Assembly (NCBI GenBank): GCA_023954475.1
Contig: JAMLHW010000001.1
Span: 248,001-312,000 of the forward strand
From: Anaerolineae bacterium
GTDB taxonomy: Bacteria; Chloroflexota; Anaerolineae; Promineifilales; Promineifilaceae
Direction: 5' to 3'
DNA length: 64,000 nt
Made by a program: the position numbers and the translations under genes. Positions within the stretch are counted from its first letter, which is position 1. Every line of letters starts with the position of its first letter. Positions 2,966 to 49,815 of the stretch are shown one piece after another. The notes under the pieces are model-generated. The model searched no databases. It saw only the letters and a list, made by a program, of their open reading frames with translations, and was not told where the DNA came from.

Positions 2966-3865
2966 ATGGCACACCTTGACCGCGTCCATGCATCACAACT
3001 GACTGATGTGGGGCGAGTTCGCTCGCACAATGAAGATTTTATGGGCTGTTTGGTCCCGTCTTCGGCCGAAGAGCGATTGGAACACGGTTGGCTGTATATT
3101 GTCGCCGATGGCGTCGGTGGCGCTGAAGCAGGCGAAGTCGCCAGCCAACTTGCCACCGAGCGCGTTATCTACCACTTCCAGCATAATGATGGAAAAAGTG
3201 ACGAAGAACGGTTGTGGCGGGCCATTCGCGCAGCCAACGATGACGTACGGGCATTGGCAGCGGAACGCGGCGGCGGCTATATGGCGACGACCTTGGTCGC
3301 GGCCCACTTCCGCGACAGTTCCTTGCTCATTGCCAATGTCGGTGACAGCCGTTGTTATCACTGGCGCGACGGCGAACTGCGCCAGATAACCAGAGATCAG
3401 AGCCTGGTCGCCAAGTTACTGGATGAGGGTGCTATTACCGAAGAAGAAGCGCTCGTACATCCACGTCGCAATGTGATTTTGTCTAGTCTGGGATCGTCAC
3501 GCGAGCCGCAAATCGACTTTTATACTGAGCAGTTTGAAGCGGACGACAAAGTTTTGCTCTGTTCAGACGGCTTGATTCGGTATGTGACCGACAGTGAAAT
3601 TGCCGCATTGCTGGATGAATTGGCTGTTGACGAAGCGACGCAGATGTTGGTCGATTTGGCTAATGAACGGGGCGGTAGCGACAATATTACGGTTACGTTG
3701 TTGGAGTGGGCGACGGAAGCTGAGACGGCACCACAATTGGTCGTATCGGCCGATGCTGTCGCACCGGAACAAATGCCCAGTTACGGGTTATGGGTCTACA
3801 CGTTTTTTCTGGCACTGGTACAGTGTATCTTGATTTTGCTCATTTGGTGGGCATTGCGTGTATGA
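2966..3865 (+). CDS. PP2C-family Ser/Thr protein phosphatase with C-terminal membrane anchor
   Basis: 299 residues. All PP2C metal-binding motifs are visible: DVGRVRSHNEDF near the start, VADGVGGAEAGE, NVGDSRCYHW, LLCSDGLIRYV and GGSDNITVTLL. These form the Mn/Mg-dependent catalytic centre of Stp-type phosphatases that reverse Hanks-kinase phosphorylation. The last 25 residues (YTFFLALVQCILILLIWW) form one membrane helix, so the catalytic domain should face the cytoplasm. The cognate kinase is not in the window. Expression is probably from a leaderless promoter. Function is well supported; substrates are unknown. Confidence 0.9.
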   Translation: MAHLDRVHASQLTDVGRVRSHNEDFMGCLVPSSAEERLEHGWLYIVADGVGGAEAGEVASQLATERVIYHFQHNDGKSDEERLWRAIRAANDDVRALAAERGGGYMATTLVAAHFRDSSLLIANVGDSRCYHWRDGELRQITRDQSLVAKLLDEGAITEEEALVHPRRNVILSSLGSSREPQIDFYTEQFEADDKVLLCSDGLIRYVTDSEIAALLDELAVDEATQMLVDLANERGGSDNITVTLLEWATEAETAPQLVVSADAVAPEQMPSYGLWVYTFFLALVQCILILLIWWALRV

Positions 3866-4053
3866 TCGTTGCTAGGAACACACCGGGTAAATGATTTTTT
3901 GCCCGTTTTGTAACAATCCGATATGAGCCGATGCACATCAGACTGTGCTTCAGTTGATTGTGCCACCATACCGGAAACAGAAATGAATTATTGCATCCGG
4001 CGCAGTCGGGTATTGCTGCCTGCCGCCTGATGCTATCTACACGAGGTGATTTT

Positions 4054-5691
4054 ATGAGTTCTAAGCTCCGCATTCTGCCGTTGGGAGGTTGTGGCGAAAT
4101 CGGTAAAAATATGACCGTGATCGAATATGAGAACGAAATTCTCATTGTCGATGCCGGCATCATGTTCCCTGAAAATGACATGCTTGGGGTCGATGCCATT
4201 ATCCCCGACTACAGTTACTTAAACGATAAAATGGACAAGGTGAAAGGCGTGCTGATTACGCACGGTCACGAGGATCATGTTGGTGCATTGCCGCATTTGA
4301 TGCGCGATGTCAAAGCACCGCTTTACGCGACGCCGCTGACATTGGGCTTGATCGAGGTCAAGCTACAGCGGGCCGGATTGCGCCAAAATGTGCAACTGCG
4401 GGAGATTCAGGCGGGTGATGCATTTGCTGTCGGCCGATTTATGATCGAGCCGTTTCACGTCACCCACAGCATCCCCGATTGTGTCGGCTTCGGCATCACG
4501 ACGCCGGTCGGTTTAATCGTGCACACCGGCGACTACAAATTCGACCACACACCAGAGGATGATTGGCCGCCTGACTTCGCCAAACTGGCCGAATTCTCGG
4601 CTCGCAACGTGCTGTGCCTACTTGGTGACAGTACCAACGCCGAACGCCCCGGCTGGACGCCGTCCGAACGCGTCATTGTTGAGGCGTTTGACGAACTGTT
4701 TAGCCAGGCTGAAGGCCGCATTATCGTCGCCAGCTTTGCATCGTTGATCTCACGCGTCAAACAGGTCGCGGAAGCAGCTGAGCGCCATGGCCGTCGTCTG
4801 GCAATTGCCGGACGCTCCATGCGCGACAATATCAAAATGGCGCAGCGTCTCGGCTATCTGGACTTGCCAGAAGGTCTGTTGATTGACATCGATCAGGCTA
4901 ACAATTTGCCGGCACACAAAGTGGCGATCATGGCGACCGGCTCTCAAGGCGAGCCGACTTCGGTGCTGGGGCGCATGGCACGTGGTCGCCACAATCAGCT
5001 GCGTGTCCGTGAAGGGGACACGATTGTCATTTCGGCGCACACGATTCCCGGCAACGAGGAAATGACGCACCGGATCATCAACCGCATGTTTCAGCAGGGC
5101 GCCTCTGTGCTCTATGAAGGCAACGCCCATGTGCATGTTTCCGGGCATGGAGCGCGTGAAGAAATGAAACTGATGATCAACTTGATTCGGCCGAAATACT
5201 TCATTCCTGTCCACGGTGAATTGCGCCATCTGACCGCCCACCGCAAAATGGCAATAGAATTGGGTATACCGGATGAGCATATCGCTGTGGTGGAAAATGG
5301 TCATGTGGTCGAATTCACGCCCAACAGCATGAAGGTTCTCGACCGCTTACCCGGTGGCTACGTCTTCGTGCAGGGCAGTGCAGTGGGCGATATAGGTTTT
5401 CCCATCGTACGCGAGCGCGACGAACTGGCACAAGCCGGTTTCTACACCGCCGTCGTGCGCCTGAACGATAACGCCGACCTGCTCACCGCCCCCAAGATCG
5501 TTTCCGAAGGATTCATGAGCAAGAGCAACGTGGAAGAACTGTATGAAGGCGCTTGTGAAATCATTGCCAATACCGCCAGTCAGTATGGGATGAAGAGCAG
5601 GCATCTGGATTCACAAATTCAGGGCGCATTGAAACGCTATCTCTACGCAGAAACCGGTTTGCGTCCACGCGTGTTTGTCGTCATCAATTAA
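4054..5691 (+). CDS. rnj: Ribonuclease J (metallo-beta-lactamase/beta-CASP)
   Basis: 545 residues, usual family length. HGHEDH at 70-75 is the zinc-binding motif; GDYKFDHTP, SAHTIPGNEE, HVSGHGAREE and PVHGELRHL are the beta-CASP motifs. RNase J combines 5'-3' exonuclease and endonuclease activity and matures or degrades mRNA and rRNA. The start at 4054 has GAGGTG 7 nt upstream, and LRILPLGGCGEIGKN follows directly, as in the family; the longer frame from 3958 is unlikely. A strong intrinsic terminator overlaps the stop codon. Confidence 0.93.
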   Translation: MSSKLRILPLGGCGEIGKNMTVIEYENEILIVDAGIMFPENDMLGVDAIIPDYSYLNDKMDKVKGVLITHGHEDHVGALPHLMRDVKAPLYATPLTLGLIEVKLQRAGLRQNVQLREIQAGDAFAVGRFMIEPFHVTHSIPDCVGFGITTPVGLIVHTGDYKFDHTPEDDWPPDFAKLAEFSARNVLCLLGDSTNAERPGWTPSERVIVEAFDELFSQAEGRIIVASFASLISRVKQVAEAAERHGRRLAIAGRSMRDNIKMAQRLGYLDLPEGLLIDIDQANNLPAHKVAIMATGSQGEPTSVLGRMARGRHNQLRVREGDTIVISAHTIPGNEEMTHRIINRMFQQGASVLYEGNAHVHVSGHGAREEMKLMINLIRPKYFIPVHGELRHLTAHRKMAIELGIPDEHIAVVENGHVVEFTPNSMKVLDRLPGGYVFVQGSAVGDIGFPIVRERDELAQAGFYTAVVRLNDNADLLTAPKIVSEGFMSKSNVEELYEGACEIIANTASQYGMKSRHLDSQIQGALKRYLYAETGLRPRVFVVIN

Positions 5692-46179: not shown

Positions 46180-46208
46180 TTGACACATGTCCATTCGTAT
46201 GTCATAAT
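46180..46208 (+). promoter_or_regulatory. Consensus sigma70 promoter of a short transcript
   Basis: TTGACA (46180-46185), 17-nt spacer, CATAAT (46203-46208). Start predicted near 46215. It is one of the best promoters in the window, and drives only about 175 nt before a terminator. Confidence 0.75.
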
Positions 46209-46262
46209 GCTCACACGGTCGGCACAGAAGTTGCGACCCCTTAACAAGCCATCCTAAACCAA

Positions 46263-46348
46263 AAGGAGGTGGTGCTTATGTCTAGTAACTTAGCCAATAG
46301 TACCGCGGCAGCACTACCTCCTTATTGGAATTCGTAGTGCTGCCGCGG
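46263..46348 (+). promoter_or_regulatory. Two mutually exclusive RNA pairings around a Shine-Dalgarno sequence
   Basis: AAGGAGGTGGTGC (46263-46275), which includes the Shine-Dalgarno sequence, can pair with GCACTACCTCCTT (46311-46323) over 13 positions with one G-U. Alternatively CCGCGGCAGCACTAC (46303-46317) pairs perfectly with GTAGTGCTGCCGCGG (46334-46348). The two structures share 46311-46317 and exclude each other, so the RNA could switch between a closed and an open ribosome-binding site. Confidence 0.6.
46278..46337 (+). CDS. 19-residue peptide in the short transcript
   Basis: MSSNLANSTAAALPPYWNS, read from ATG 46278 with AAGGAGG 9 nt upstream. The reading frame covers the left arm and loop of the long hairpin, and its stop lies in the right arm. 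It has one Thr and no Met/Ile run, so a classical attenuation leader for homoserine dehydrogenase is not evident. I do not recognise it. A translating ribosome would disrupt the hairpin, so the peptide may serve only as a translation sensor. Confidence 0.45.
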   Translation: MSSNLANSTAAALPPYWNS

Positions 46349-46354
46349 TCGGCG

Positions 46355-46392
46355 AAAGAGCCTGTTCACAATTGTGGACAGGCTCTTTTTCC
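46355..46392 (+). terminator. Terminator of the short transcript, upstream of hom
   Basis: AAAGAGCCTGT (46355-46365) pairs with ACAGGCTCTTT (46378-46388), with an inner CACAA/TTGTG stem, followed by TTTTT. Confidence 0.88.
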
Positions 46393-46426: not shown

Positions 46427-46432
46427 TATAAT
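46427..46432 (+). promoter_or_regulatory. -10 element of a leaderless hom promoter
   Basis: A perfect TATAAT lies 7 nt before ATG 46440, directly after the terminator, so hom has its own transcript. Confidence 0.6.
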
Positions 46433-46439
46433 TCTCACC

Positions 46440-47507
46440 ATGAACAAACAAATTCCTGTAATCATCTTCGGTGCCGGCGGTGTGGGCCGTGCGCTTTTGC
46501 AACAAATCGTAGAAGGTCGCGAGACGGTAGCGACGCGCAACCAACTCTATTTCAACGTCGTCGCTGTGGCCGACAGCCGCCGCTGGCTGTGGCAGCCCGC
46601 AGGCATGGCTGACGAACAACTGCTCGCCGTTATTCAGGCGAAAAAGACCCGGCAAAACCTCGGTGTCGAACGTCCAGACGGCGTGACAATTATCGAGCAA
46701 GCGGCGCAAGCCGGTCTCGAAAACGGCATTGTCGTCGATGTGACAGCGTTAGAAGGCATGGAACCGGTGCTGGACAAAGCGCTGGCAATCGGTTGGGGCG
46801 TGGTGCTGGCGAACAAGAAGGCGTTGGCCGGTCCGTGGGCGACGGCGCAGCGCTATTTCAACAATCCGCGCGTACGCCATGAATCGACGGTCGGCGGTGG
46901 TCAGCCTGTCATTGCCACGCTGCGCTATTTGCTGGACACGAGCGACCCGATATTGCGTATCGAGGGCCAGATGAGCGGTACGCTGGGTTACATTTGCCAA
47001 CGACTCGACACAGGGCTACCGTTTTCGCAAGCGATTGCGGAGGCAAAGGCGTTTGGCTACACGGAGCCGGATCCGCGTGAAGACCTGGGTGGATTGGACG
47101 TGATGCGCAAAATTTTGATCCTGGGGAGAATGGCGGGGTGGGGGTTGGATTCGGCCGATATTGCCGTCGAATCTCTCTATCATCCATCGCTGGCGCATCT
47201 GTCTGTGCCGGAATTCATGACGGCATCGCGGGCGCTCGATCCGTCGATGGCTGACCGCGTCAAGGTTGCCCATGCCAATAACACCGTTCTGCGCTATGTG
47301 GCTGAATTATCGGCCGAAGGCGGCTCAGTCGGTCTCAAGGCGCTGCCGGCGACGAGCGGCCTGGCCAATCTGAAGTACATCAGCTTCCAAACGGGGCGCT
47401 ACGAGGATGAGCCGCTGTTGATCGGGGGTAAGGGTGCAGGCGTGAGCATGACGGCGGCGGGTGTGCACGGGGATATGATCGATTTCGGCCGAGAGATCAC
47501 AAACTGA
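46440..47507 (+). CDS. hom: Homoserine dehydrogenase
   Basis: 355 residues, short form without an ACT domain. IIFGAGGVGRALLQQI is the dinucleotide-binding site. NKKALAGPW, then ESTVGGGQPVIATLR and the signature GTLGYICQRL with EPDPREDLGGLDVMRKILILGR (catalytic Asp/Lys region). It reduces aspartate semialdehyde to homoserine, leading to Thr and Met. Lack of an ACT domain suggests no allosteric Thr inhibition through that domain. It is preceded by a separate short transcript ending in a terminator. Confidence 0.9.
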   Translation: MNKQIPVIIFGAGGVGRALLQQIVEGRETVATRNQLYFNVVAVADSRRWLWQPAGMADEQLLAVIQAKKTRQNLGVERPDGVTIIEQAAQAGLENGIVVDVTALEGMEPVLDKALAIGWGVVLANKKALAGPWATAQRYFNNPRVRHESTVGGGQPVIATLRYLLDTSDPILRIEGQMSGTLGYICQRLDTGLPFSQAIAEAKAFGYTEPDPREDLGGLDVMRKILILGRMAGWGLDSADIAVESLYHPSLAHLSVPEFMTASRALDPSMADRVKVAHANNTVLRYVAELSAEGGSVGLKALPATSGLANLKYISFQTGRYEDEPLLIGGKGAGVSMTAAGVHGDMIDFGREITN

Positions 47508-48640: not shown

Positions 48641-49790
48641 ATAAGCTAACGGGTACTATGAAAAAACAACATGTCACCCTAAGCGATAATGATCGCACTT
48701 ATCTGGAAGACTTAATCAGCAAAGGCAGTTTATCTGCCAAAATGTATAAACGAGCTGTAGCTCTCCTCGAACTAGATCGAGGAAGCACCTTTACAAAGGT
48801 GGCTCAAATCGTCGGTGTGACGATACAAACCGCATCGACCTGGGCCCAAAAATACGGAGAAAATGGGCTGGAATTCTTAACCGATAAACCCCGTCCCGGT
48901 CGTCCCAAAGAGATTGATGGGATTACCCGTGCCCAAATCACAGCCCTGGCTTGCAGCGACGCTCCAGAAGGATATAGCCAGTGGAGCCTGCGTCTTTTGG
49001 CCGAAAAAGTGGTTGAACTGGAGTATATTGACACCATTTCCCACACTGAAATTGGACGCATTCTCAAAAAAACGAACTCAAGCCCCACTTGAAGCGACAG
49101 TGGGTAATCGGCAAAATGACGCATGCTTTTCTCGCAGCAATGGAACGTATCCTCTGGTTGTATGCCCAACCTTACAATCCGAAGCGTCCCGTCGTCTGCT
49201 TTGATGAACGTCCTTGTTTTCTGATCGGTGACGCTGTCGAACCAATAGCCATGCAAACCGGTCAAATCCGCAAAGAGCATTATGCCTATGAAAAGAATGG
49301 TTCCTGTGCTCTTCTGGCAGCGATTGAACCCTTGACGGCCAAACGAGTAGCTGAGATATATCCTCAGCGCACAGGCAAAGAGTTCACTCATTTTTGTCAA
49401 CGCTTGTCGCGACAGGCTTATCCCGAGGCTGACAAGATTTTGCCTGGTTCTCGATAACCTCAACACACATACGATTGCCTCTTTTTACAAGTATTTGCCG
49501 GCTGATGAAGCCTTTGCTTTAGGGCAACGATTTGAATTCTGGTATACGCCCAAGTCGGCCAGTTGGCTCAATATGATTGAAATTGAGTTCTCGGCTTTGA
49601 CTCGACTCTGTCTTAATCGGCGTATCCCCATGATCGAGGAATTGTCAACCGAACTGTTAGCCTTGATTGCTGAGCGGATGCGCAAAGGTATCAAAATCAA
49701 TTGGCAATTCTCCATAGCCGTATGTCGCCAAAAGCTAAATTCTCGATATACAGTTGTTAATGATGCGAATTCCAAGTTTGCTTATTCACC
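48636..49790 (+). mobile_element. IS630-family element (decayed)
   Basis: Bounds are approximate. ATAAGCTAAC (48641-48650) and GTTTGCTTAT (49776-49785) are inverted with one mismatch and may be inner parts of the terminal repeats. The element carries the two-frame transposase described separately. The region is AT-rich and has no TCGGCCGA. A TA target duplication, usual for this family, could not be assigned with confidence. Confidence 0.6.
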
Positions 49791-49815
49791 AACTTCGGAA
49801 ACCGTGAATGTTTAG
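48658..49815 (+). pseudogene. IS630-family transposase, -1 frameshift architecture plus an extra disruption
   Basis: First frame: helix-turn-helix region with FTKVAQIVGVTIQTASTWAQ and LTDKPRPGRPKE. At CTCAAAAAAACGAAC (about 49068) a -1 slip on seven A joins NELKPHLKRQWVIGK in the second frame, the arrangement used for programmed frameshifting in IS630. The DDE domain continues with VVCFDERPCFLIGD. At 49445-49451 (TTGCCTGG) one extra base breaks the frame before VLDNLNTHTIASFYKY and FWYTPKSASWLNMIEIEFSAL. The element is therefore probably inactive unless the extra base is a sequencing error. Confidence 0.8.

Follow-up and report, generated by a model that had tools for sequence, protein, structure and literature searches.

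A widely conserved, free-standing short-ORF RNA of Chloroflexota as a candidate ribosome-operated switch

The unit at positions 46180-46392 of an Anaerolineae contig is a member of a conserved family that extends far beyond the window, that is, the whole stretch of 64,000 nucleotides analysed here (contig JAMLHW010000001.1 of assembly GCA_023954475.1). All 110 of 110 members are built on a common plan, consisting of an extended Shine-Dalgarno (SD) sequence (segment A), an ORF of 14-20 codons that contains its complement (segment B), a stop codon near the border of segments B and C, and an arm C as a second pairing partner of B. We tentatively posit, at a little short of an even judgement, that the unit may be a free-standing short mRNA or regulatory RNA with a predicted length of about 175 nt, acting as a ribosome-operated two-state switch whose output would be the state of the RNA.

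A sequence-only reading of this DNA had named a promoter, a leader with AAGGAGG, a 19-codon ORF, a hairpin and an intrinsic terminator within about 210 bp, and every one of these elements sits where that reading had placed it (Table 1). The hairpin is perfect, as had been noticed, and its length was measured as 16 bp instead of 15 bp. The pairing of the SD over 13 positions with a sequence inside the ORF could be verified, as could the overlap of that sequence with the left hairpin arm. Because of this overlap the A:B and B:C helices are mutually exclusive. The transcript fold has a stability far above chance (MFE -84.7 vs. -48.9 in shuffles, z -9.4).

Table 1. Features of the unit, in window coordinates.
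Feature	Position	Strand	Remarks
Promoter TTGACA-17-CATAAT, TG ahead of the -10	TTGACA 46180-46185, CATAAT 46203-46208	+	11/12 consensus
5' leader motif GCCATCCTA	46248-46256	+	weak pairing of its TCCT with the SD predicted for the full-length RNA
SD AAGGAGG	46263-46269	+	part of segment A
Segment A AAGGAGGTGGTGC, Shine-Dalgarno and next nucleotides	46263-46275	+	near-invariant in the family; co-varies with B in the class
ORF MSSNLANSTAAALPPYWNS, 19 codons, stop UAG	46278-46337	+	start, frame and stop kept in homologues
Segment B, left hairpin arm ACCGCGGCAGCACTAC	46302-46317	+	16 bp with 46334-46349; covariation
Anti-SD part of segment B, GCACTACCTCCTT	46311-46323	+	13 pairs with A
Segment C, right hairpin arm GTAGTGCTGCCGCGGT	46334-46349	+	stop codon 46335-46337 at its 5' end
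Intrinsic terminator	46354-46392	+	stem 46354-46389, then T-rich tail

Within its own genome the unit had no second full-length copy detectable with a 251-bp query, and a 221-bp query returned no plasmid or phage match. According to a plain DNA search of 59 relatives, most genomes of the window's taxonomic family carry it. A covariance model (R1) matched 50 of 52 genomes of the window's family and 232 of 396 Anaerolineae genomes, while the class-level model R2 matched 201 of the 297 Anaerolineae genomes that were at least 90% complete, nearly always with a single match per genome. Carriers include Promineifilum, Ardenticatenia, Caldilineaceae, Litorilinea, Thermoflexales and Anaerolineales. 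About one third of the near-complete class genomes had no R2 match, so either the family is not universal or R2 misses divergent copies. The possibility of a mobile or repeated element was ruled out by the single copy in its own genome and the usual one elsewhere; the family is apparently single-copy and vertically inherited.

Weaker R2 matches (E<=0.01) were obtained in 61 of about 338 genomes from other Chloroflexota classes. By reading, the SD, the short ORF and the following hairpin were kept in 25 of 26 such examples, less clearly in L287; locus L269 was rejected as a false model match. Two other phyla yielded R2 matches in 8 of 357 genomes, which are weak and amount to a background of about 2%. 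The best match outside Chloroflexota, locus L291 of Actinomycetota, was judged to be unrelated, having a 5-codon TTG ORF and no A:B pairing. On its minus strand near position 1515, AAGGAGGTGGTGCTC is followed by this ORF and a strong hairpin, perhaps another unit of short ORF and hairpin. Among 80 organism-named pattern matches, 12, mostly from other phyla, were without a match to R2.

The B:C hairpin covaries strongly among the aligned homologues. In the window's family, whose alignment was not fitted to the hairpin, two-sided changes were found at 8 of 15 pairs (28 cells vs. 8.2 shuffled). Across the class, 14 of 15 pairs changed two-sidedly (146 cells vs. 32.7 shuffled, covariation score 0.413 vs. 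0.165), figures that lean towards the hairpin because the class alignment was fitted to it. For A:B, to which the class alignment was not fitted, the class gave 16 two-sided cells vs. 5.9 shuffled, and one pair occurs as A-U (44), G-C (13) and G-U (7) with 2 breaks. In the family, the 11-pair core of A:B is 98% paired; A is near-invariant there, and changes in B almost all preserve pairing, with the exception of one column in four sequences. Covariation among homologues had been set beforehand as the point on which the switch would stand or fall, and the comparison supports both helices.

For 84 of 85 members the SD:ORF duplex energy was better than with shuffled ORFs (p<=0.05); the 85th is without upstream sequence. 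The SD complement is evidently rebuilt in each group, in new registers: one group combines GAGGAGG[U]GAUG with the complement CAUCCCUCCUC, another GGUGAUGCCC with GGGCAUCACC, and locus L290 GGAGGUGAUGCGAC with GUCGCAUCACCUCC. In members of the other classes, part of the GGAGG core stays outside A:B. The likeness to a translation-sensing leader with a switch over its ribosome-binding site, as proposed from the single sequence, is thus backed in its structures and its ORF by 110 homologues.

The reading frame is conserved as well. All of 85 members have an ORF length of 14-20 codons, and the first in-frame stop falls at the site in 110 of 110 members in frame 0; the corresponding counts for the two other frames, the fair comparison here because the ORFs had been picked by their start codon, are 6 and 3 of 110. 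Relative to the right arm, the stop is positioned between -15 and +4 nt in 83 of 85 members. Of the 110 ORFs, 104 end in UAG or UAA, and UGA accounts for 6 of 110 (about 5%) vs. 77 of 205 (38%) in neighbouring genes; the binomial p of 7e-15 for this avoidance is overstated because the members are related. Avoiding UGA means that termination would almost always proceed via RF1, the release factor that reads UAG and UAA, a hint that termination matters.

The strongest alternative, which we nevertheless consider unlikely, is that the unit is a small mRNA for a functional peptide of 14-20 residues and that the A, B and C structures merely limit its translation. Frame, start, strong SD and stop are indeed kept in all 110 members, and the Anaerolineae peptides share an MDSSxxxxSAVASPR-like pattern. 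However, the common residues lie mostly inside the pairing arms, and peptides of other classes, such as MHSKTKGITVEVTR, bear no likeness to this pattern. The complement to A is also found in all three codon phases (70, 23 and 12), with different residues in each, which argues that the RNA pairing is selected and not the peptide. Within the family, the third position of a four-fold degenerate Pro codon is invariant, and Pro-to-Ser changes that preserve a G-U pair occur. Serine is encoded by AGU in 148 of 218 cases vs. 10.7% in neighbouring genes (codons 2-8 of the 110 ORFs, window 46281-46301), a preference for nucleotides and not for amino acids. We infer that the act of translating, and not its product, is probably under selection. 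Of the earlier suggestion of a stand-alone regulatory RNA or peptide, the stand-alone part is therefore strengthened by the conserved promoter and terminator described below, and the peptide part is weakened by the three codon phases with their different amino acids.

Most of the early codons (2-8) have the form NNU or NGU and, together with the AGU serines, create out-of-frame UAG repeats (AUGGAUAGUAGU). Binding of Hfq was ruled out as a reason for the AGU repeats, as the genome carrying the window has no match to PF17209 (Hfq); this also sets the unit apart from Hfq-dependent sRNAs.

Less probable still is a trans-acting antisense RNA, in which CCUCC in segment B, partly in the hairpin loop, would bind the SDs of other mRNAs, with the ORF and its SD controlling exposure. 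Other bacteria have small RNAs of this sort, with anti-SD loops, in which a CCUCC-type segment likewise lies in a hairpin loop or close to it. Segment B contains AUCACCUCC in most class members, which we take to be the sequence of the 16S rRNA 3' tail. The CCUCC-type segment is largely conserved, yet it changes together with the unit's own SD, and in the family of the window B departs from the 16S-like sequence but keeps its complementarity to that SD, as expected of an intramolecular partner. Unlike in the anti-SD-loop sRNAs, the segment lies within an ORF and co-varies with its own SD.

The genomic setting bears on whether the unit controls a neighbour. A promoter-like site (at least 9/12) was found upstream in 25 of 25 family loci, 53 of 60 class loci and 18 of 25 loci of other classes vs. 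6.7% of controls, and a strict terminator downstream in 19 of 23, 41 of 60 and 13 of 24 loci, respectively, vs. 4.4% of controls. The gene hom follows shortly downstream on the same strand in 16 family loci (the window and 15 others), with the terminator in between; six family loci with readable downstream flanks lack hom, and some of these then have convergent genes. Outside the window's family, hom adjoins the unit in 0 of 60 class loci. Simple ORF calling places the nearest downstream gene on the unit's own strand in 31 class loci and on the opposite one in 29, with 12 vs. 12 in other classes, and no neighbour is conserved across the class. The lack of a consistent neighbour, and of hom outside the family, points to a stand-alone mini-mRNA or regulatory RNA and not to a hom attenuator. 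The sequence-only reading was right in placing a terminator between unit and hom; the position before hom appears to be incidental.

A leader attenuating hom is accordingly very improbable, and we regard it as ruled out by synteny, despite the adjacency in the window's family. Besides the absence of hom elsewhere and the equal use of both strands downstream, hom has its own -10, the TATAAT that had been noted before and that was found at 46427-46432, 7 nt ahead of the ATG at 46440. Threonine codons are not conserved, and the 110 ORFs contain no conserved run of Thr, Met or Ile codons that could serve regulation. The terminator does not overlap the switch: its stem lies outside arm C and the predicted fold holds both together, so the unit lacks the antiterminator that shares a terminator strand in an attenuator. 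The working principle of attenuators, a translated short ORF combined with exclusive RNA pairings, is present, translation being suggested by frame conservation.

Several observations on the flanks stand apart from this question. With its TATAAT so close to the start codon, hom is apparently leaderless. Consecutive ORFs in different frames at window positions 48658-49815 resemble a transposase in pieces, presumably IS630-like. Downstream of the unit in locus L091, six tRNA genes and RNase P RNA lie on the minus strand (3686-5090), and eight loci have in common a spurious ORF such as arises over tRNA genes. In L277 and L284 the convergent downstream neighbour resembles, by reading, ribosomal protein bL25, which is probably incidental.

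Type I toxin mRNAs typically have a short ORF and an internally sequestered SD, and a toxin message masked until activation would fit the unit in both respects, but we judge it to be a very remote prospect given peptides that are short, hydrophilic, unconserved and, as judged by reading, devoid of a membrane-spanning stretch, nearly always one copy per genome with class-level conservation, and an anti-SD within the ORF that competes with a stop-codon arm.

Folding predictions are consistent with a two-state switch in Anaerolineae. When folded up to the stop codon, as a nascent RNA would be, 74 of 85 Anaerolineae members are predicted to pair their SD with the ORF; in the full fold with segment C this is predicted in 9 of 85, and B:C forms in 82 of 85. 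The difference speaks for a transition from an SD-closed nascent RNA to the B:C state. In other classes the nascent-closed pattern is weak in these predictions (9 of 25). In the predicted fold of the complete RNA the 5' leader keeps the SD largely base-paired, with a median accessibility of 0.10-0.15, so that the "open" state would not be fully open. Either a third, weaker lock exists, in which the leader with its conserved GCYATCYT holds the SD, or the prediction is wrong.

Within this leader, GC.ATC is invariant in 24 family members and near-invariant in the class, and the longer motif GCYATCYYA is near-invariant in Anaerolineae (window 46248-46256). In other classes its place is often taken by a small hairpin, for example TGCCATCTAGGCA in L273. 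The motif may bind a protein or contact the ribosome.

On the basis of these folds, we propose that A:B would shut the SD in the nascent RNA, and that B:C would win once C has been synthesized, so that A is freed, though partly held by the weaker pairing with the 5' leader. A ribosome loaded on A would then unwind B:C while translating B and terminate at UAG or UAA on the border of B and C. At the stop it would cover C, and B, re-emerging behind it, could re-close on A unless the next ribosome has already loaded there. In this way, ribosome loading and release would be reflected in the state of the RNA. Since a consistent downstream gene is lacking and changes in the RNA alter the peptide too, we consider the RNA itself the most likely output. 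It would act in trans on translation, perhaps by binding 30S subunits, by exposing the anti-SD segment or through its stability. A more far-reaching version, which is conceivable and on balance somewhat doubtful, is a gene-independent housekeeping device of Chloroflexota in which the 30S subunit and a built-in copy of the anti-SD compete for the SD, and which would sense ribosome loading and release and act in trans on translation.

No Rfam 15 family matches the unit at its gathering score; Thr_leader (RF00506) reached 26.3 bits vs. a gathering score of 55. The literature searched, with a 2017 survey of 224 candidate structured RNAs lying outside that scope, contained no paper describing this RNA. 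The unit resembles the trpL/thrL attenuators (Thr_leader RF00506) and the ermC-type translation-attenuation leaders in its short ORF with an SD, its exclusive segment pairings and its close terminator. Unlike these leaders, it has no consistent regulated gene downstream and it masks the SD of its own ORF. The nearest idea in the literature is rnTrpL/peTrpL of Sinorhizobium meliloti, whose leader RNA and peptide resemble those of an attenuator and are reported to work in trans (PMC7298713). However, rnTrpL is part of the trp operon leader, whereas the Chloroflexota unit forms a gene of its own, with a dedicated promoter and terminator and neighbours that vary.

The switch principle as such is therefore already known, and the new part, to our knowledge, is its gene-independent and widely conserved version; we know of no other ribosome-operated switch of this kind. 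Known ribosome-operated RNA switches mostly precede the gene that they control. If our reading is true, the product here would be the switching RNA itself, a single-copy and widespread RNA with its own promoter and terminator and an unconserved peptide, and the little-studied phylum Chloroflexota would gain a candidate housekeeping regulator of translation.
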